Origin: a bacterium
GTDB taxonomy: Bacteria > Armatimonadota > Zipacnadia > Zipacnadales > Zipacnadaceae
Direction of reading: 5' to 3'
DNA: 64,000 bases
Assembly (NCBI GenBank): GCA_030603495.1
Contig: JAUVXR010000011.1
Location: 1 to 64,000 of the forward strand
This document shows, piece after piece, positions 3,359 to 56,512 of this stretch (the first letter of the stretch is position 1; each line of letters starts with the position of its first letter). Below the pieces are notes generated by a model that did no database searches, had not been told where the DNA came from, and saw nothing but the letters and a program-made list of their open reading frames with translations. A program made the position numbers and the translations under genes.

Positions 3359-4342
3359 TTACCGGACGGTTACAGCACAGGTTCCCTTGGCAGAGCCCGC
3401 AGCGGTAGACCCGGTGGCGGTGATCAGGCACAGGCCCTGTCCTACCGCCTGCACCAGGCCGCCAGGGTCAACTGTGGCCACGGCGGACTCATCGCTGTCC
3501 CACGCAAACTCCGCGTACGGGATCGGTGCCCGAGACTCATCAAACGCCATTGCCGACACCAGCAACTCTGAGGGAACGTCAAACAGGTACAGCGTAAGCT
3601 CGGGTGGAATCACTTCGACCGTAACCACCGCACGACTCTCGACGGTGACCAAGCATCCAGCGCTCTTGCCCGTAATGGTTTCGGTGGCCGTTACTGTGCA
3701 CGTGCCGTCGCCGACGGCGGTGACTGTCGCAAGGGGGGAAAGCGCTGCCACTGTCGCCACGGCCGGGTCGTTGCTGTCCCAGATAAAGTCCGCACCTATG
3801 ACCAGTCCACCGTCCGCATCTTTCGCTGTGGCGATAAAGGCATCGAATTGCTCGGGCTCTAGGGCGATCTCCGAGACGTTCAGCTCCACGGCTGTGGTGA
3901 GAGCCTCCGTAACCAGGTGAGCGGTAGCTGTACCTCCTGCAGGAACTTCCACTTTAGTCTGCGCCCATGCGATGACATCGCCGGTGCCCTGTTGGTTGGG
4001 AAATGCCTCAGCAAGGACGCTGACCCAGCCTGCCGGGATATTTCCCACGGTGCCCGACACCGACCCTCCGCCCGGTGGCTTTTGCAGTAGCACTCGCTGT
4101 TGCCAGCCCGGCATTGTCACTGCCCCGGCCAGTCCTCCGGAGGGACCGATAGTCACCAGGACGCTTTCGGTGGCTTTGGGGAGTAACTGGGGAGTTGGGG
4201 CATCGGTGGCAGAGGGAAAGACCACCGTGAGCCCCAGACTTCCCGTAGCTTCTGAAGATGGCCCCCCACCACCACACCCTACGTGCATGCCCACCAGAGC
4301 GGCGCCCAGGAATATGCAGACAACTGTCCCTATCCTCTTCAC
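3359..4342 (-). CDS. secreted lipoprotein with bacterial Ig-like (BIG2) domains
   Basis: The 327-residue product begins with a signal peptide ending in a lipobox-like 'GMHVGCGGGG', so it is probably lipid-anchored at the outer side of the cell. Two BIG2-type Ig repeats are visible in the second half, each with 'WDSNDPAVATV...VTAVGDGTCTVTATE' or 'WDSDESAVATV...VQAVGQGLCLITATG' patterns. The first half resembles the carbohydrate-free beta-sandwich region often found in such surface proteins. The GTG start at 4342 has GAGGTGAG upstream. No enzyme motif is seen; a structural or adhesion role is likely. Confidence 0.75.
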   Translation of the reverse strand: MKRIGTVVCIFLGAALVGMHVGCGGGGPSSEATGSLGLTVVFPSATDAPTPQLLPKATESVLVTIGPSGGLAGAVTMPGWQQRVLLQKPPGGGSVSGTVGNIPAGWVSVLAEAFPNQQGTGDVIAWAQTKVEVPAGGTATAHLVTEALTTAVELNVSEIALEPEQFDAFIATAKDADGGLVIGADFIWDSNDPAVATVAALSPLATVTAVGDGTCTVTATETITGKSAGCLVTVESRAVVTVEVIPPELTLYLFDVPSELLVSAMAFDESRAPIPYAEFAWDSDESAVATVDPGGLVQAVGQGLCLITATGSTAAGSAKGTCAVTVR

Positions 4343-4696
4343 GATTTCTCACCTCGCCTCACGGTTCTAAGCACTGACCATCCATCTCCAATATTGGCCG
4401 TCTGTCAGGATTCTCCTGCTGTGGACAGAAACTAATTTGTCCAAGTGAACCGCTATTAGCGGCGAATGGGCATATTAGTCGTCGCCGTTCAATTCCAGCG
4501 AAGGCTGGGTGGAGATGGACGCTTGGGTAAAGTCTGTACAGGGCGATGACCTGCCCCCATAAATGGTACCACCTGCTATGTTAGTCTCACGGCCTCTACA
4601 GCCATGGCCGGAAGGTGAGGCGTAGCCGAAGCTGGAGGCCATGGCTGGACTGCCTCCGGGGCCGGTGGTCGATAGTTAAGCGCGCTGTGTGGTCGC
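4343..4696. other. intergenic region, no gene recognised
   Basis: This divergent interval must hold the promoter of the Ig-like lipoprotein (reading left). No conserved coding frame or RNA was recognised. The coding similarity of the DUF4838 fragment begins sharply at about 4697-4703, so a rearrangement junction probably lies near there, with an in-frame TAG at 4673. Confidence 0.4.
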
Positions 4697-47017: not shown

Positions 47018-47458
47018 ATGGATATGGCGAACCTGCTCAAAATCTCTGAAGCTGCCTCGCTGGCGCTGCACACTATGGTCTACCTGGCGGCAGACGATGG
47101 GCGGCTGGTTACGACCCACGAGATCGGTGAGGCCCTGCGGGTCTCCGAGGCCCATCTGGCCAAAGTGCTCCAGCGCCTGGCTCGGGTGGGCCTAGTGGAC
47201 TCCACGCGGGGGCCGAAGGGAGGCTTCCGCCTGGCCAAAGCGGGCGATAGCATTAGCCTGCTGGAAGTTTACGAGACGATTGAGGGGCCGTTGACCGACA
47301 CTGTGTGTCTGCTGGGCGAGCCGGTCTGTCAGGGGGAAAAGTGCATCCTGGGCGGCTTGCTGGAGACGGTCAACCGCCAGGCACGAGAATATCTAGCAGG
47401 CACGACTCTTGCTGACTTGACCGATGTCTATGGAGGGACACAAGATGGAAAGGCTTAG
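47018..47458 (+). CDS. Rrf2-family transcriptional regulator, probably Fe-S type
   Basis: The 146-residue protein has the Rrf2 winged helix: 'LKISEAASLALHTMVYLA', 'VTTHEIGEALRVSEAHLAKVLQRLARVGLVDSTRGPKGGFRLAK'. Three cysteines near residue 95 onward ('TVCLLGEPVCQGEKCILGG') are placed as in IscR/NsrR, which hold an Fe-S cluster that senses NO or iron-sulfur status. ATG 47018 is one candidate; ATG 47024 is another. It heads an operon with ferredoxin, a zinc-ribbon protein and Hcp and probably controls them. Confidence 0.88.
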   Translation: MDMANLLKISEAASLALHTMVYLAADDGRLVTTHEIGEALRVSEAHLAKVLQRLARVGLVDSTRGPKGGFRLAKAGDSISLLEVYETIEGPLTDTVCLLGEPVCQGEKCILGGLLETVNRQAREYLAGTTLADLTDVYGGTQDGKA

Positions 47459-48215
47459 AAAGATAATCAAGATTGATGAGGAGAAGTGCGACGGCTGTGG
47501 GCAGTGCGTGCCGGCGTGCGTCGAAGGAGCAATCCAGATCATTGACGGCAAGGCGCGCCTGGTCCGGGAGGACTACTGTGATGGGCTGGGGGCGTGCCTG
47601 GGCGAATGTCCTCAAGGAGCGATAACCATAGAGGAGCGAGAGGCCGAGGAGTTCGACGAAGCGGCGGTCGAGCGTCATCTGGCGGAGCACGTAGCAGACG
47701 AGGCGTCCCCAGCTTGTGCCGCTGCGCCCGCTACGGGGTGTCCCGGGGCGGTGGCCTTTGCGCTGGACCAGCCTGCGGCGGCCGAGCCGGCCGTCGCAGC
47801 CCCGGAGGATGGCCCATCGCCGTCTCGGCTGGGCAACTGGCCAGTGCAGCTTAGCCTGGTTCCTGTGCAGGCTCCTTATTTCCAGGGAGCCCGGCTGCTG
47901 ATTGCTGCGGACTGTGTGCCCTTCGCCTTCGCTGACTTTCACCAGCGTTTCCTGGCAGGGCGCGTGCTTCTGGTGGGCTGCCCCAAGCTGGATGATGCGG
48001 AGCTGTACCGGCAGAAGCTGGCCGAGATCTTCGCGACGAACGACATCAAGTCGGTGGACATACTGCACATGGAAGTACCGTGCTGTTTCGGACTGGTGCG
48101 GTTGGTACAGTTAGCTCTGCAGGACTCGGGCAAGCAAATACCGGCCAGCGTGACCAAGGTCGGGGTCCGCGGTGAGATTCTGGAAACCGGCCGGCTTGGC
48201 GATCTGGAGGCGTAG
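47445..48215 (+). CDS. 4Fe-4S ferredoxin-type protein
   Basis: The 256-residue protein has two 4Fe-4S sites at the N-terminus: 'CDGCGQCVPACVEGAI' and 'CDGLGACLGECPQGAI'. The middle is an Ala/Pro-rich linker with further cysteines ('SPACAAAP', 'TGCPGA'). The C-terminal half reads 'LLIAADCVPFAFADFHQRFLAGRVLLVGCPKLDD' and 'HMEVPCCFGLVRLVQLAL', conserved in a family found beside Hcp (recalled). It probably donates electrons to Hcp. ATG 47445 with GGAGGGA overlaps the Rrf2 stop by 14 bases. Confidence 0.85.
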   Translation: MERLRKIIKIDEEKCDGCGQCVPACVEGAIQIIDGKARLVREDYCDGLGACLGECPQGAITIEEREAEEFDEAAVERHLAEHVADEASPACAAAPATGCPGAVAFALDQPAAAEPAVAAPEDGPSPSRLGNWPVQLSLVPVQAPYFQGARLLIAADCVPFAFADFHQRFLAGRVLLVGCPKLDDAELYRQKLAEIFATNDIKSVDILHMEVPCCFGLVRLVQLALQDSGKQIPASVTKVGVRGEILETGRLGDLEA

Positions 48216-48219
48216 GGCC

Positions 48220-48462
48220 ATGCTGAAGTGCCCAGGACAGGATACTCAATACTGGAAACCTGAAGACATCTTTGACTTGCCTTGCCCAGTGTGCGACACA
48301 GCAGTCGAATTCCTGAAGACCGACGGACGACGCAAGTGTCCGAACTGCGGATACACCCTCAATAACCCGCGCTTGGAACTGGGCTGTGCTAAGTGGTGCC
48401 CGCACGCCGAACTGTGCCTGGGAGGACATACGCCGCCACCAGGCTCACGACCCAAACCGTGA
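48220..48462 (+). CDS. small zinc-ribbon protein of the Rrf2/Hcp operon
   Basis: The 80-residue protein reads 'MLKCPGQDTQYWKPEDIFDL', then CPVC and CPNC pairs ('DLPCPVCDTAVEF', 'KCPNCGYTL') and 'LGCAKWCPHAELCLGG'. It resembles small conserved proteins encoded beside Rrf2, ferredoxin and Hcp genes in anaerobes (recalled). The paired CxxC sites suggest a zinc ribbon or Fe-S site. ATG 48220 follows GGAGG. It lies four bases after the ferredoxin stop. Confidence 0.75.
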   Translation: MLKCPGQDTQYWKPEDIFDLPCPVCDTAVEFLKTDGRRKCPNCGYTLNNPRLELGCAKWCPHAELCLGGHTPPPGSRPKP

Positions 48463-48529
48463 CCAGGTATGCCTGATAGCCATATCAAATAGAAGGCACA
48501 TTGCCGAAAACTAACCGGAGGTGACTCTA

Positions 48530-50182
48530 GTGACTATGTTCTGTTACCAATGTGAACAGACGGCCAAGGGGAGTGGTTGCACTGTAAAGGGAGTATGCGG
48601 TAAAGAGCCGCAAGTTGCAGCGCTGCAAGACTTGCTGATACATGCGACTAAGGGATTGTCCATGTACGCGCACCGGGCCCGAGAATTGGGCGTTCAGAAT
48701 CGAGATGTTGACGTTTTCGTCCTGGAGGCTCTATTCTCGACAGTGACCAACGTGGACTTCGATGTCGAGCGTCTGAAGGTGCTGCTGGCGCGGGCGGTGC
48801 AGTTGCGTGCTAAGGCGCAGGAGATGTACGAGGAGGCCTGCCAACAGATGGGGGACACTCCCGAGACACTTTCGGGTCCCGCCTCGTGGGCTCCGGCTGA
48901 TGACCTGGACAGTCTGCTTGAGCAGGCCGAAGAAATTGGCATCGCCCGGCGCAAGGAAGCGCTCGGTGAGGTGGTCGCCGGTCTGCACGAGCTTATCACC
49001 TCCGGACTTAAGGGCGCGGCTGCCTATGCTGACCATGCGCAGATACTGGGCTATGAAGACGATGATGTGTATGCGTCTTTCCATGGAACCTTAGACTTTC
49101 TAGCCGGTGAGCCAACTGATATTGATGAACTCCTCGCTAGAGCGTTGAAAGTCGGGGAGTTGAATCTGAAGGTGATGGCACTGCTGGACGCAGCCAACAC
49201 CACTACGTACGGAGCCCCGGAGCCGACCCCGGTCCGAATCGAGCCGGTTGCCGGCAAGGCGATAGTCGTCTCGGGCCACGATCTGAAGGACTTGGAGGAG
49301 TTGCTCAAACAGACCGAGGGCACCGGCATCAATGTGTATACGCACGGCGAGATGCTGCCCGCCCACGGATATCCGGGACTAAAGAAGTACAAGCACCTGG
49401 TGGGCAACTACGGCGGGGCCTGGCAGAACCAGCACAAGGAGTTTGATGTCTTCCCTGGCGCGATCCTGATGACCACCAACTGCATCCAGAAGCCCCGGGA
49501 CAGTTACCAGGACAGGATATTCACCAGCGGACTAGTCGCTTGGCCCGGGGTCGTCCACATCGGCGATCGGGGTTTTACTCCCGTCATTGAGGCAGCTCGG
49601 GCCGCCGAAGGGTTTGCAGAAGACGGCTCTGACAGGACTATTCTCGTGGGCTTTGGGCATGAGGCGGTTCTGAATGTGGCTGACCAGGTTATCGAGGCGG
49701 TCAAGAGTGGGGCTATCCGGCACTTTTTCCTCATCGGCGGCTGCGATGGGGCCAAGCCCGGCCGCAACTACTACACCGAGCTTGCCCAGGCTGTTCCGGA
49801 CGACTGCGTGATATTGACTTTGGCCTGTGGCAAGTACCGCTTCAACAAGCTGGAGTTCGGGGACATTGGTGGTATTCCTCGCCTGCTGGACGTCGGGCAG
49901 TGCAACGACGCCCATTCGGCGATTCAGATTGCCTTGGCACTGGCCACGGCCTTTGATTGTGGAGTCAATGATCTGCCGCTGTCGCTAATCGTCTCCTGGT
50001 ATGAGCAGAAGGCCGTGGCGATTCTGCTCAGCCTGTTGCACCTGGGCATAAAGAATATTCGCCTGGGCCCGACGCTGCCGGCCTTTGTCACGCCACCGGT
50101 GCTGGAGGTGCTCAGCGAGAAGTTCAACATCGTGTCCATCACAACCCCCCAGGAGGATTTGCAGGCTATACTGGGGGAGTGA
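48530..50182 (+). CDS. hcp: hybrid cluster protein (hydroxylamine reductase)
   Basis: The 550-residue protein has the N-terminal cluster cysteines ('MFCYQCEQTAKGSGCTVKGVCGK') and, further on, the conserved hybrid-cluster region: 'TTYGAPEPT', 'SGHDLKDLEELLKQTEGTGINVYTHGEMLPAHGYPGL', 'NCIQKPRDSYQDRIFTSG', 'FFLIGGCDGAKPGRNYY' and 'LACGKYRFNK'. It reduces hydroxylamine or NO and also acts in S-nitrosylation control in E. coli. GTG 48530 fits the SD GGAGGTGA best; ATG 48536 and GTG 48521 are alternatives. Together with Rrf2 and ferredoxin it forms a nitrosative-stress operon. Confidence 0.95.
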   Translation: MTMFCYQCEQTAKGSGCTVKGVCGKEPQVAALQDLLIHATKGLSMYAHRARELGVQNRDVDVFVLEALFSTVTNVDFDVERLKVLLARAVQLRAKAQEMYEEACQQMGDTPETLSGPASWAPADDLDSLLEQAEEIGIARRKEALGEVVAGLHELITSGLKGAAAYADHAQILGYEDDDVYASFHGTLDFLAGEPTDIDELLARALKVGELNLKVMALLDAANTTTYGAPEPTPVRIEPVAGKAIVVSGHDLKDLEELLKQTEGTGINVYTHGEMLPAHGYPGLKKYKHLVGNYGGAWQNQHKEFDVFPGAILMTTNCIQKPRDSYQDRIFTSGLVAWPGVVHIGDRGFTPVIEAARAAEGFAEDGSDRTILVGFGHEAVLNVADQVIEAVKSGAIRHFFLIGGCDGAKPGRNYYTELAQAVPDDCVILTLACGKYRFNKLEFGDIGGIPRLLDVGQCNDAHSAIQIALALATAFDCGVNDLPLSLIVSWYEQKAVAILLSLLHLGIKNIRLGPTLPAFVTPPVLEVLSEKFNIVSITTPQEDLQAILGE

Positions 50183-50224
50183 AGTCTGCGCCCCGAAGAT
50201 CGACATTGAGGAGGATGGATACGG

Positions 50225-52624
50225 ATGACTGAGCAATCCGTGACCTTGGAGATTACCGGTATGAACTGTGCGGCTTGCGCGCAGACGATTGAGAAGTTCC
50301 TGCGTCGCGTGCCTGGGGTTGTTGAGGCGAATGTCAACTTCGCTGCTGAGACGGCGCGAGTCACCTTCGACCCGCAGCAGGTAGGAGCCCCGCTACTCAT
50401 TAAGGCAGTGGACGATGCAGGCTATGGCGCACGCGTACAAGGCCGACGGCCGCAGCGAGTGCGTCTGCGCATTGGCGACATGACCTGTGCCTCTTGCGTC
50501 CAGCGCATCGAACGCCGCCTCAAGAATGCTCCCGGTGTCATCTCGGCGACAGTCAACCTGGCTGCTGAGAGCGCCGATGTGACGTTCGACCCCGCGCAAA
50601 CCGGCATCAAGCAGCTTATCGCCGTGGTACAGGATACTGGTTACACCGCCGAAACTGCGGGCGAGCAACCTCAGGACGAGCAGGAACAAGCGCGTGCCGC
50701 TGAAATCCGCCGCCAGGGACGGCTGTTTGTCCTAGGAGCGGTGGTCAGTGTTCCGTTATTCATCCTCAGTGTGTGGTTTGAGTTCCCGAGCAGGCTCTAT
50801 GTGCTGTTTGCTATGGCTACGGTTGTTCAGATCATGCTGGGCTGGCAGTATTATCGCAACTCTTATCGGGCGCTGAAGCACGGCAGCGCTAATATGGACG
50901 TGCTCGTTGCCATGGGCTCCTCGGCTGCCTATCTATACAGCGTCTATGTCACATTCCTTGTCCAGGACCAGGTGGACGTCTACTACGACACGGGTGCTGT
51001 CATCCTTACACTCATCACTCTGGGGCGCTTCCTGGAGGCGCGCGCCAAGGGTCGCACCTCCGCGGCAATCCGCAAGCTGATGCAACTGGCCCCGGTCCAG
51101 GCCTCGGTAGTCCGCGATGGGGAAGAGGTCAAAGTTTCGCTTCAGCAAGTCGAGGTGGGCGACCTAATCGTGGTTCGGCCCGGAGAGAAGATTGCGGTTG
51201 ATGGCGAGGTGGTCGAGGGTCACTCCACAGTGGACGAGTCGATGATAACCGGTGAGAGTATCCCTGTGGATAAGGCTGCCGGCGATGGAGTTATTGGCGG
51301 CACTATCAACAAGACCGGCACATTCAAGTTCCAGGCCACCCGCGTAGGCAGCGAGACGGCCCTGCAGCAAATCATACGTCTAGTCCAGGAAGCGCAGGGC
51401 ACCAAGCCGCCTATCCAGCGGCTGGCCGATACGGTTGCCGCCTACTTTGTGCCGGCGGTCATTGCTATTGCCCTCCTGACTTTCCTCGGCTGGCTGCTGG
51501 CGGGAGTCGGTTTGGCACATGCTCTGATCCCCGCGGTGGCCGTGCTGGTGATTGCCTGTCCCTGTGCTCTGGGACTGGCCACACCGACGGCAGTGATGGT
51601 AGGCACCGGCTTGGGCGCGGACTACGGGATTCTCATCAAGCAGGCTAGCGCTCTAGAGATGGTGGGCCGCCTCGATACTATCCTTTTCGACAAAACCGGC
51701 ACCCTTACCCGCGGGCAGCCCGAAGTCACTGAGTTGCGCACACTAACCGATGATCTCTCGACCGATGACTTGCTGCGCCTCGCCGCAGCAGTCGAGAATC
51801 CTTCGGAACACCCCCTGGGCCAGGCGATTGTGGCCCGGGCCAAACAGACCAACCTGGAGATTGCCGCAGTGGATGACTTTGAGGCGCTGGCGGGCCGGGG
51901 GGTGCGCGCGACGGTAGACGGGCAGCAGATTCTGGTGGGCAGCAACGGGCTGATGCACGAAGCGGGCGTGGATGTCTCTTCTGCGCAGGAAGCTAAGAGC
52001 AGCCTGGAACAGCAGGGCAACACAACCCTGCTGGTGGCAAGAGACGGCCAGCTGGTCGGACTGGTAGCTCTGGCTGACACGCTCAAACCGGGAGCGATGC
52101 GGGCCGTCTCCCGTCTGCAACAGATGGGCCTGGATACCTATCTCATCACGGGCGACAATCGGCGTACCGGCGAAGCTATCGGCCAGCAGTTGGGTATGGA
52201 CAACGTGCTTGCCGAAGTCCTGCCCGAGCAGAAGAGAGACCAGGTGAAACAGCTTCAGCAGCAGGGCCACCGCGTCGCGATGGTGGGCGACGGCATCAAC
52301 GACGCGCCGGCGCTGGCGCAGGCCGACGTGGGGATTGCACTGGGCACCGGCACAGATGTAGCGATGGAGGCGGGAGAGATCACGCTGGTCAGCGGCGATC
52401 CGCTGGGCGTAGTGCGCGCTATACTGCTGAGCCGCCGGACTCTGACTCATATCAAGCAGAATCTGTTCCTGGCGTTCTTCTACAACATTGCCGCTATCCC
52501 ATTGGCCGCCGCGGGTCTGCTGAATCCGATGATTGCCGCCGCCGCGATGGCGGCCTCCTCGGTGTCTGTGGTATCCAATTCGCTGCGCCTGCGCCGCTAC
52601 TCCCCGATTAAGGGCGAAGGATAG
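50225..52624 (+). CDS. copA: copper-translocating P1B-type ATPase (CopA-like)
   Basis: The 799-residue ATPase has two N-terminal heavy-metal-associated domains: Cys15/Cys18 ('GMNCAAC') and Cys88/Cys91 ('DMTCASC'). It has the metal site Cys445-Pro-Cys447 ('[12 protein letters not shown]'), the phosphorylated Asp489 ('DKTGTLT'), 'SEHPLGQAI' (HP motif) and '[20 protein letters not shown]'. These mark a Cu(I) exporter of the inner membrane. It follows hcp by 42 bases. The converging small Cys-rich gene and ArsR gene on the other strand suggest a metal-stress unit. Confidence 0.95.
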
Positions 52625-52646
52625 AGGTCATCCGGCTGCAGAAAGC

Positions 52647-52687
52647 AAAAAAAGGCGACTGGGGCCCCTCATTGAGCTGGGCCCCAG
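52647..52687 (-). terminator. bidirectional terminator between copA and the Cys-rich microprotein
   Basis: CTGGGGCCC and GGGCCCCAG form a perfect 9-bp stem (52659-52687). On the minus strand it is followed after five bases by seven T (52653-52647), so it is a strong intrinsic terminator for the gene at 52700-52822; it may also stop copA transcription. Confidence 0.8.
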
Positions 52688-52699
52688 CCGCGAATACTG

Positions 52700-52822
52700 C
52701 TACCGGCAACACGACTTCTTTGGCTTTTCCTCTTCACAACACGTCTCTGCCTTTTTCTCTTCGCACGTCTTCTTCTCTTCGCACGTCTCTTCCTTCTTGG
52801 GTGCGCAGCACTCCTTACACAT
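52700..52822 (-). CDS. Cys-rich 40-residue microprotein, probable metal-binding protein
   Basis: ATG 52822, preceded by TAAGGAGGTGACACAG, starts a 40-residue protein with nine cysteines (positions 2, 5, 6, 14, 20, 28, 29, 38, 39) and otherwise mostly Lys and Glu. The start is 'MCKECCAPKKEE' and the middle repeats 'TCEEKK'. A terminator with a T-tract follows the TAG. Shine-Dalgarno and terminator together make it a convincing gene. It resembles a metallothionein in composition but not in a motif I can name. It lies between copA and the ArsR gene, so copper or other soft-metal buffering or delivery is likely. Confidence 0.75.
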   Translation of the reverse strand: MCKECCAPKKEETCEEKKTCEEKKAETCCEEEKPKKSCCR

Positions 52823-52865
52823 CTGTGTCACCTCCTTATAGGGAATCGGCAATGATTCCACGGAA

Positions 52866-53189
52866 TTAGTCGCTGACCATCAACTCCAGGGTCTCACTGT
52901 TGCTCAGGCACTGGGTCTTGAGGATTTCGTCGAGCAACTCAAGCATCTGATTAACGGTTTCGTCGGCAATAGTGTAGTAGACTCGCGTGCCCTCTTTGCG
53001 CGTCGCGACCAGTCCGCTGGCGCGCAGAGTATTCAGGTGGCACGATATAGTAGACTGATTCATGCCCAGGGTGCCAGCCATCTCGCAAACTGTCATCTCC
53101 CCGTCGCTAAGCAGATCCAAAATGTGCAACCTGGTATGCGAAGCAAGAGCTTTCAGAACGCCGACCCTAAGTTGGTGAACGCACTTGAT
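52866..53189 (-). CDS. ArsR/SmtB-family winged-helix regulator
   Basis: The core is 'LHILDLLSDGEMTVCEMAGTLGMNQSTISCHLNTLRASGLVATRKEGTRVYY', the ArsR helix-turn-helix plus wing. The first conventional start, TTG 53129 (87 residues), would remove the family-typical first helix, which is nevertheless readable upstream: 'KCVHQLRVGVLKALASHTR'. The frame is open up to a TAG near 53200. No ATG, GTG or TTG exists there; ATC 53189 lies six bases after GGGG. Cysteines in 'TVCEM' and 'ISCHL' may bind metal. Two palindromes upstream are likely operators. It probably represses itself and perhaps the Cys-rich gene or sod. Confidence 0.8.
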   Translation of the reverse strand: MKCVHQLRVGVLKALASHTRLHILDLLSDGEMTVCEMAGTLGMNQSTISCHLNTLRASGLVATRKEGTRVYYTIADETVNQMLELLDEILKTQCLSNSETLELMVSD

Positions 53190-53215: not shown

Positions 53216-53254
53216 ATTGTAATATTGCAATAGCTAAATGTATTGTATCACAAT
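53216..53254 (-). promoter_or_regulatory. two palindromic candidate operators upstream of arsR
   Basis: ATTGTAATATTGCAAT (53216-53231; one mismatch from a perfect 16-bp palindrome) and ATTGT-ATC-ACAAT (53242-53254) share the half-site ATTGT. They lie in the A/T-rich gap between sod and arsR, where the ArsR protein would be expected to bind. Confidence 0.6.
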
Positions 53255-53289
53255 GCCTGACCTCTGTCAATACCGATCGTTGTTCTTTC

Positions 53290-55349: not shown

Positions 55350-55865
55350 TTACTGCCCCCACTTCTCGTACGCCACGATCTCCTCGAGCGCCAGGCGGTG
55401 CTTGATGCCGGGCTGGTCATCGGGGTAGCCCAAGGGCATCAACTGCACCACGCGGATCTGCTGGGGTATGTCCAGGATTTCTTTGACCGCCTCCGCGTCG
55501 AAGGCGCCCACCCAGCAGGTGCCCAGGCCCTCTGCTACCGCCTGCAGCGCAATATGCTCCAGCGCAATCGCTACGTCAATTGGGTAGCACATCAGGCCGC
55601 AGCGCATCACGTGCTCATCGGTCTCGGCGCAGGCGGCAATCACCACCGGGGCCTGGCCGACGAAGCCCTGTCCGCCCGCGGCTGCCATCAGTTTCTGCCG
55701 GGTCTCGGCATCTGTCACCACCACGAAGCGCCACTCCTGCCGGTTGCTCGCCGAGGGCGCCAGCCGCGCAGCCTCCAGCACTCGTTCGAGCTTCTCGGCT
55801 TCCACCGGTTGGTCCTTGTACTGGCGCACGCTGTAGCGCTGCTGGATAGCTTCGAACACGTCCAT
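55350..55865 (-). CDS. nitroreductase-family FMN protein
   Basis: The 171-residue protein is a nitroreductase-like flavoprotein: 'RYSVRQYKDQPVEAEKLERVLEAARLAPSASNRQEWRFVVV' (FMN-binding Arg and Ser), 'DVAIALEHIALQAVAEGLGTCWVGAFD' and 'MPLGYPDDQPG'. Members reduce quinones or nitro compounds with NAD(P)H. ATG 55865 after GGAGG is preferred to 55901. It follows the RsmC-like gene by about 20 bases and may share its transcript. Confidence 0.88.
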   Translation of the reverse strand: MDVFEAIQQRYSVRQYKDQPVEAEKLERVLEAARLAPSASNRQEWRFVVVTDAETRQKLMAAAGGQGFVGQAPVVIAACAETDEHVMRCGLMCYPIDVAIALEHIALQAVAEGLGTCWVGAFDAEAVKEILDIPQQIRVVQLMPLGYPDDQPGIKHRLALEEIVAYEKWGQ

Positions 55866-55885
55866 TACAATCAGCCTCCTTGAGG

Positions 55886-56512
55886 CTATTTCTGACAACA
55901 AAATACGCGGTAACCTCTTTTCCGGGATACCGTCTCAACACTAGTAAACAGCGGGGTAATGTCGCGGATGCGGCTCTTGGCCCCCTGTTTGGTGCGGGCG
56001 ACCAGCCAGAGCATCCCGCCGGGGCGCAGGCGATCGGTTGCATCTGTCAGGAGCCGGTAGACCTCCTGCTTACCGGCCCGAATGGGCGGGTTGCACAGGA
56101 CAACATCGAACTTCCGCCCACCGAGCACCTCTGGCGCGTCGCCGGTCAGCGCCTCGACATTGATCACCGCATTGGCGGCAGCATTTTCGGCGGCGAGTTG
56201 CGTGGCACGCTTGTTGATATCTACCAGCGTCACCCGCGCGCCCGGCGCGAGCTTGGCCGCCACCAGTCCGAGTATGCCGTAGCCGCAGCCCAGGTCGAGA
56301 ATATCGCCCGACTCGGGCAGCGCCATCTTCCTGGCTAGCAGCAGGCTGCCGGGATCAACGCGCCCGTGCGAAAAGATGCCCCGGTCCGAGGTCAGCGTAA
56401 GCTGCACCCCGCGCACAGATACATCGAACTTCCGGGGCCGGGAAGGCGTGTGCGGCTGCTCGCTGAAGTAGTGACTTGTGTCGGGTTTCGTAGTAGGTCT
56501 ATTCTTGGCCAT
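55886..56512 (-). CDS. RsmC/RlmG-like methyltransferase (MTS domain)
   Basis: The 208-residue protein has the small-ribosomal-subunit methyltransferase fold: 'SDRGIFSHGRVDPGSLLLARKM', SAM motif 'ILDLGCGYGILGLVAAKL' and the catalytic 'VVLCNPPIRAGKQEVYRLLTDA' (NPPx). Such enzymes methylate guanine N2 in rRNA. It is shorter than full-length RsmC, lacking the N-terminal pseudo-methylase domain. Target rRNA position is not known. Confidence 0.85.
   Translation of the reverse strand: MAKNRPTTKPDTSHYFSEQPHTPSRPRKFDVSVRGVQLTLTSDRGIFSHGRVDPGSLLLARKMALPESGDILDLGCGYGILGLVAAKLAPGARVTLVDINKRATQLAAENAAANAVINVEALTGDAPEVLGGRKFDVVLCNPPIRAGKQEVYRLLTDATDRLRPGGMLWLVARTKQGAKSRIRDITPLFTSVETVSRKRGYRVFCCQK

Follow-up and report, generated by a model that had tools for sequence, protein, structure and literature searches.

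Bacterial metallothioneins have been recorded from few lineages (cyanobacteria, pseudomonads and mycobacteria). In the BxmR-BmtA operon of Oscillatoria brevis and the SmtB-SmtA divergon of Synechococcus, an ArsR/SmtB repressor acts on the gene of a small Cys-rich metal-binding protein (PMC8790569); other ArsR proteins, RexT and HlyU, sense H2O2 or persulfide (PMC8960804, PMC10509353). The module described here, from a stretch of 64,000 nucleotides (the window), resembles BxmR-BmtA and SmtB-SmtA in joining an ArsR/SmtB repressor, a small Cys-rich product (here a putative metal binder) and an inverted repeat in the promoter, and its two-gene operon layout is like that of BxmR-BmtA and unlike the SmtB-SmtA divergon. 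As opposed to BmtA and SmtA, however, the peptide does not match PF02069 and consists of 27-40 residues with Cys pairs set amid Lys and Glu; the repressor lacks the α5 histidine site, and the operator-like element is a compact 16-mer rather than a 12-2-12 repeat. The AzuR-NmtA pair of Anabaena likewise has an SmtB/ArsR-type repressor, a metallothionein and an inverted-repeat operator, but azuR is unlinked to nmtA and NmtA is a cyanobacterial metallothionein. The persulfide sensors HlyU, SqrR and BigR include the nearest solved fold and are among the nearest sequences (HlyU is about 42% identical to our ArsR), yet their α2 sensing Cys is replaced here by Asp25, and both the Cys layout and the output gene are different.

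A two-gene operon with its own operator-like repeat

The microprotein gene is the second gene of an operon, 43 nt downstream of arsR on the same strand, and since no terminator was found between them, the two appear to be one transcription unit (Table 1). The earlier note had placed the microprotein between copA and arsR and treated arsR as a mere neighbour; the position is right, but the description was incomplete, arsR being the same-strand operon partner and copA being convergent.

Table 1. Features of the arsR-microprotein module (positions in the window).
Feature	Position	Strand	Basis
Sigma-70-type promoter TTGACA-17-TACAAT	53242..53270	minus	TTGACA invariant in nine loci
Operator-like inverted repeat ATTGCAATATTACAAT	53216..53231	minus	present in 9/9 promoters
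ArsR/SmtB-family repressor gene (operon gene 1)	52866..53189	minus	NF033788, PF01022, alignment, fold
Ribosome-binding site AAGGAGGTGA	52823..52840	minus	ATG 5 nt further on
Cys-rich microprotein gene	52700..52822	minus	translation, homologues, selection, randomisation
Intrinsic terminator	about 52646..52691	minus	13-bp stem, then TTTTTTT

In all nine loci considered below, the promoter consists of TTGACA, a -10 element and, directly after the -10, the 16-bp inverted repeat ATTGnAATnTnnCAAT. Exact matches to ATTGnAATnTnnCAAT occur once per genome in 7 of 15 family genomes, always at the arsR promoter; the remaining 8, which do not carry the arsR-microprotein operon, have none, and a reversed control pattern gave zero matches across the 15. 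With one mismatch allowed, two extra sites appeared in the genome of the window, both non-palindromic, and there was no further copy elsewhere in the window. As the repeat is confined to the arsR promoter, the predicted regulon is the operon itself, with the microprotein apparently its sole non-regulatory (structural) product; ArsR presumably binds the repeat. No Rfam element was found near the operon.

The apparent start codon of ArsR is ATC (53187-53189, minus strand), with no ATG, GTG or TTG and with a TAG four codons upstream in the window; the same codon is found in L013 and L014, and ATG takes its place in L015, L016 and L018. ATC is possibly a non-AUG start that holds repressor levels low.

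A Cys-rich microprotein family under purifying selection

The microprotein ORF translates as MCKECCAPKKEETCEEKKTCEEKKAETCCEEEKPKKSCCR, followed by a stop codon. Nine of its 40 residues are Cys (22.5%), 11 are Glu and 10 Lys, and neither aromatic residues nor His occur (the L015 microprotein has one Tyr), so that the small size, high Cys share and aromatic-free make-up of the metallothionein-like class are all present. To gauge chance occurrence, the whole window was randomised 40 times with a first-order Markov, dinucleotide-matched model: none of these sequences contained an ORF of 25-45 residues with at least nine Cys, or a Cys-rich small ORF with GGAGG, and the real window contains one. The Shine-Dalgarno is near-perfect, and GGAGGTGA is common to this region in 9/9 loci. 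The terminator folds with -35 kcal/mol (z -5.2), a stability equalled in none of 200 shuffles, and equivalent hairpins are visible in related loci. The earlier claim of a nine-Cys, 40-residue microprotein is thus borne out by the translation, by AAGGAGGTGA 5 nt before the ATG and by the randomisation, and that of a terminator of its own with seven T by the fold.

Homologues, for which the earlier note had proposed a search, were recovered with both peptide and ArsR queries. Peptide searches of whole genomes found them in the same bacterial family, and aligning the ArsR against a collection covering about 85,000 species led to eight loci, four in Candidatus Zipacnadia MAGs and four in MAGs labelled CSMAG (matching contigs equate L013 with G013, L014 with G010 and L015 with G001). 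Candidatus Zipacnadia, which has the rank of class within the Armatimonadota, was described from marine sediments (PMC10290634). The organism of the window lies within or very close to this class of deep-sea-sediment bacteria, and its genome belongs to the same family as several of the eight relatives. In 9/9 loci (window plus eight), the arsR orthologue is followed immediately by a CCxPKK...KKSC microprotein. These peptides span 27 to 40 residues with 5 to 10 Cys and have in common a core of CCxPK(K/Q)...KK(S/G)C, in which the Cys-rich ends are kept and the Lys/Glu middle varies. Length differences amount to whole codons only (3n indels), the eight relatives keeping the frame, and pN/pS was 0.09-0.42 in 8/8 pairs, with small counts per pair. 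Purifying selection acts on the Cys-rich frame and, as judged from these sequence features, the microprotein is a genuine gene under selection.

Two members of the family stand apart. The L013/G013 microprotein has a TAA at codon 7 with the remaining frame intact (L013 positions 4321-4470 are the L007 sequence), and this relative may be able to do without the peptide; the MAG contig with this nonsense codon is labelled 99x coverage. In G014 (L009/L021), a relative of 29 residues and four Cys, MSAKSCCGPKKEEKKEEKKEVKKGCCSKK, occurs without such an ArsR and has promoter-like and terminator-like sequences of its own.

Direct peptide scans of genome-contig and viral-contig collections gave no match, probably because tblastn does not cope with so short and biased a peptide, and the ArsR query worked instead; a plasmid search was also empty. 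Pattern matching on a broader scale, across 291 Armatimonadota genomes, yielded no further member beyond families f1 and f3. Weak peptide matches in G046, G041, G025 and G034 and the pattern matches L041-L047 were discarded as chance, not being small Cys-rich genes. No Pfam, NCBIfam or PDB family matched the microprotein, in agreement with the earlier remark that its family could not be named, and membership of the classical prokaryotic metallothioneins (PF02069) was rejected, as that model matched none of the nine peptides and exceeded its cut-off in 0/41 genomes of the order. A search of the literature on Armatimonadota metallothioneins found nothing relevant.

Conservation covers the block from promoter to terminator (about 53321 to 52650), whose flanks are rearranged at its edges: sequence identity with the window drops off sharply right behind the terminator in L014, and right upstream of the promoter in L015. 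L015 retains upstream of arsR a remnant of the 3' end of sodA, the rest of the gene being absent, which marks a rearrangement. copA adjoins the module in 3/9 loci (window, L013 and L015), and sodA is beside it in just three as well (L013, L014 and the window). The constant unit across loci is the arsR-peptide pair.

The ArsR repressor and its cysteines

ArsR (107 codons) belongs to the ArsR/SmtB winged-helix proteins by profile scores (NF033788, 96.6 bits against a cut-off of 55; PF01022, 59.4 against 22) and by fold, the closest solved structures to its AlphaFold model (pLDDT 86) being HlyU (top), Mb0332, NolR, CzrA and SmtB. Cys3, Cys50 and Cys94 are invariant in 9/9 sequences and Cys35 is found in 7/9 (lost in L018 and L019). 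The model places Cys3 in α1, Cys35 in α3, Cys50 in the recognition helix and Cys94 in α5; a sensing Cys in the DNA-recognition helix would be an unusual position. The distant ArsRs of L031-L033, the nearest outgroup, have equivalents of Cys35, Cys50 and Cys94 plus a Cys at position 44; they adjoin nitroreductase or flavodoxin genes, with no microprotein downstream.

The α5 site of SmtB and CzrA consists of Asp/His, His, His and Glu/His (D104, H106, H117 and E120 in SmtB). In our ArsR sequences, an ungapped comparison with SmtB at offset 28 gives D/H76, T/A78, I/M89 and T/A/S92 (positions 89 and 92 extrapolated past the aligned end), which is not this Zn/Co site. The α3 CXC site of ArsR/CadC is reduced to a single Cys in the window (T33-V34-C35), and the persulfide dithiol of SqrR/BigR/HlyU is missing, RLQILCML of HlyU corresponding to RLHILDLL (D25). 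Scores were also below cut-off for the BigR model NF040642 (55 against 155) and for the CmtR Cd/Pb sensor equivalog NF047906 (51.4 bits against 150). The cysteine layout fits none of the sensor classes tested, and a site made up of thiolates alone points to soft metals or to thiol-reactive signals.

A candidate soft-metal buffer and its alternatives

We consider it probable, with some reserve, that the module consists of a soft-metal sensor that regulates its own gene and drives production of a metallothionein-like thiol buffer. A dimeric ArsR/SmtB-type repressor would occupy the 16-bp repeat downstream of its own -10 and silence the two-gene arsR-microprotein transcript; soft thiophilic ions (Cd, Pb, As(III), Hg or Cu(I)) would bind Cys3, Cys50 and Cys94 and release the repressor, whereupon the second gene, with its strong Shine-Dalgarno, would give a large yield of the Lys/Glu-rich, Cys-pair peptide of 27-40 residues, and the thiolates of the peptide would chelate the metal as a buffer until the sensor has returned to its apo state. 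This reading draws on the arsR-microprotein pairing in 9/9 loci with the repeat in 9/9 promoters and one copy per genome, on purifying selection, the constant Cys ends and the conserved promoter-to-terminator block, on the passed NCBIfam metalloregulator cut-off and the HlyU/CzrA/SmtB-like fold, and on the known ArsR/SmtB regulators of metallothioneins such as BxmR-BmtA (PMC8790569). Counting against it are a Cys number that varies from 4 to 10, the fact that no tested metal-site layout fits ArsR fully, the stop codon in the L013/G013 microprotein, and the nearby sod, rubrerythrin and hcp genes together with the nitroreductase or flavodoxin genes beside the outgroup ArsRs, which fit a redox signal equally well. 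The operon in 9/9 loci, its unique repeat and the purifying selection lend support, at the level of sequence, to the earlier proposal of a metallothionein-like buffer under a metal-type regulator, and the microprotein is probably metallothionein-like, soaking up toxic soft metals.

The module of the window is surrounded by genes for SOD, two rubrerythrin-like proteins, hydroxylamine reductase (hcp) and a nitroreductase (55353-55901), L014 has a peroxiredoxin and L017 a sulfur-incorporation enzyme (HcyBio). Together with the nitroreductase and flavodoxin genes beside the outgroup ArsRs, and with the precedent of RexT and HlyU (HlyU being the best fold match and one of the best sequence matches), these neighbours speak for a reading in which ArsR would sense oxidative, nitrosative or sulfur stress through its cysteines and the microprotein would be a sacrificial thiol, persulfide or disulfide buffer instead of a metal store. 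We nevertheless regard this as rather unlikely: the α2 Cys of the persulfide pair aligns with Asp25, and hence the known dithiol is absent, the modules of L016 and L018-L020 retain the peptide without redox neighbours, and a nine-Cys Lys/Glu peptide has the classic make-up of a chelator.

A Cu(I)-specific buffer cooperating with CopA, towards which the earlier note had leaned on account of copA, would suit the vicinal Cys pairs and the adjoining copA of the window, L013 and L015. In the window, however, an Rrf2 regulator, a ferredoxin-like protein, hydroxylamine reductase and copA lie on one strand (47021-52624) and look like one nitrosative-stress unit, copA going with hcp and not with the microprotein; it is convergent, on the other strand and after hcp, and is not a neighbour in 6/9 loci, nor does a copy of the operator turn up close to it when one mismatch is allowed. 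The inference from copA is therefore not supported, and we hold a copper-specific role to be improbable. Strict co-occurrence with one type of ArsR might also point to a regulatory peptide that binds ArsR, delivers metal to it or serves as a leader, without bulk buffering, but G014 has a similar peptide without such an ArsR and the strong Shine-Dalgarno suggests an excess over repressor, which makes such a role very improbable; a leader peptide or attenuator was rejected, since the microprotein is the last gene, with nothing else before the terminator.

Returning to the soft-metal buffer, we are evenly balanced as to whether the module represents a new lineage-restricted metallothionein-like family, with two Cys-rich ends and a Lys/Glu segment of varying length, run by an ArsR with an undescribed sensing site of α1, recognition-helix and α5 cysteines whose sole target is its own operon. 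The microprotein has no detectable sequence relationship to known bacterial metallothioneins and, being so short and biased, escapes routine homology tools; only via the regulator could its family be traced. The arsR-microprotein pair would be a compact combination of sensor and chelator, and it suggests that in uncultured phyla other buffers of this kind lie hidden downstream of arsR.
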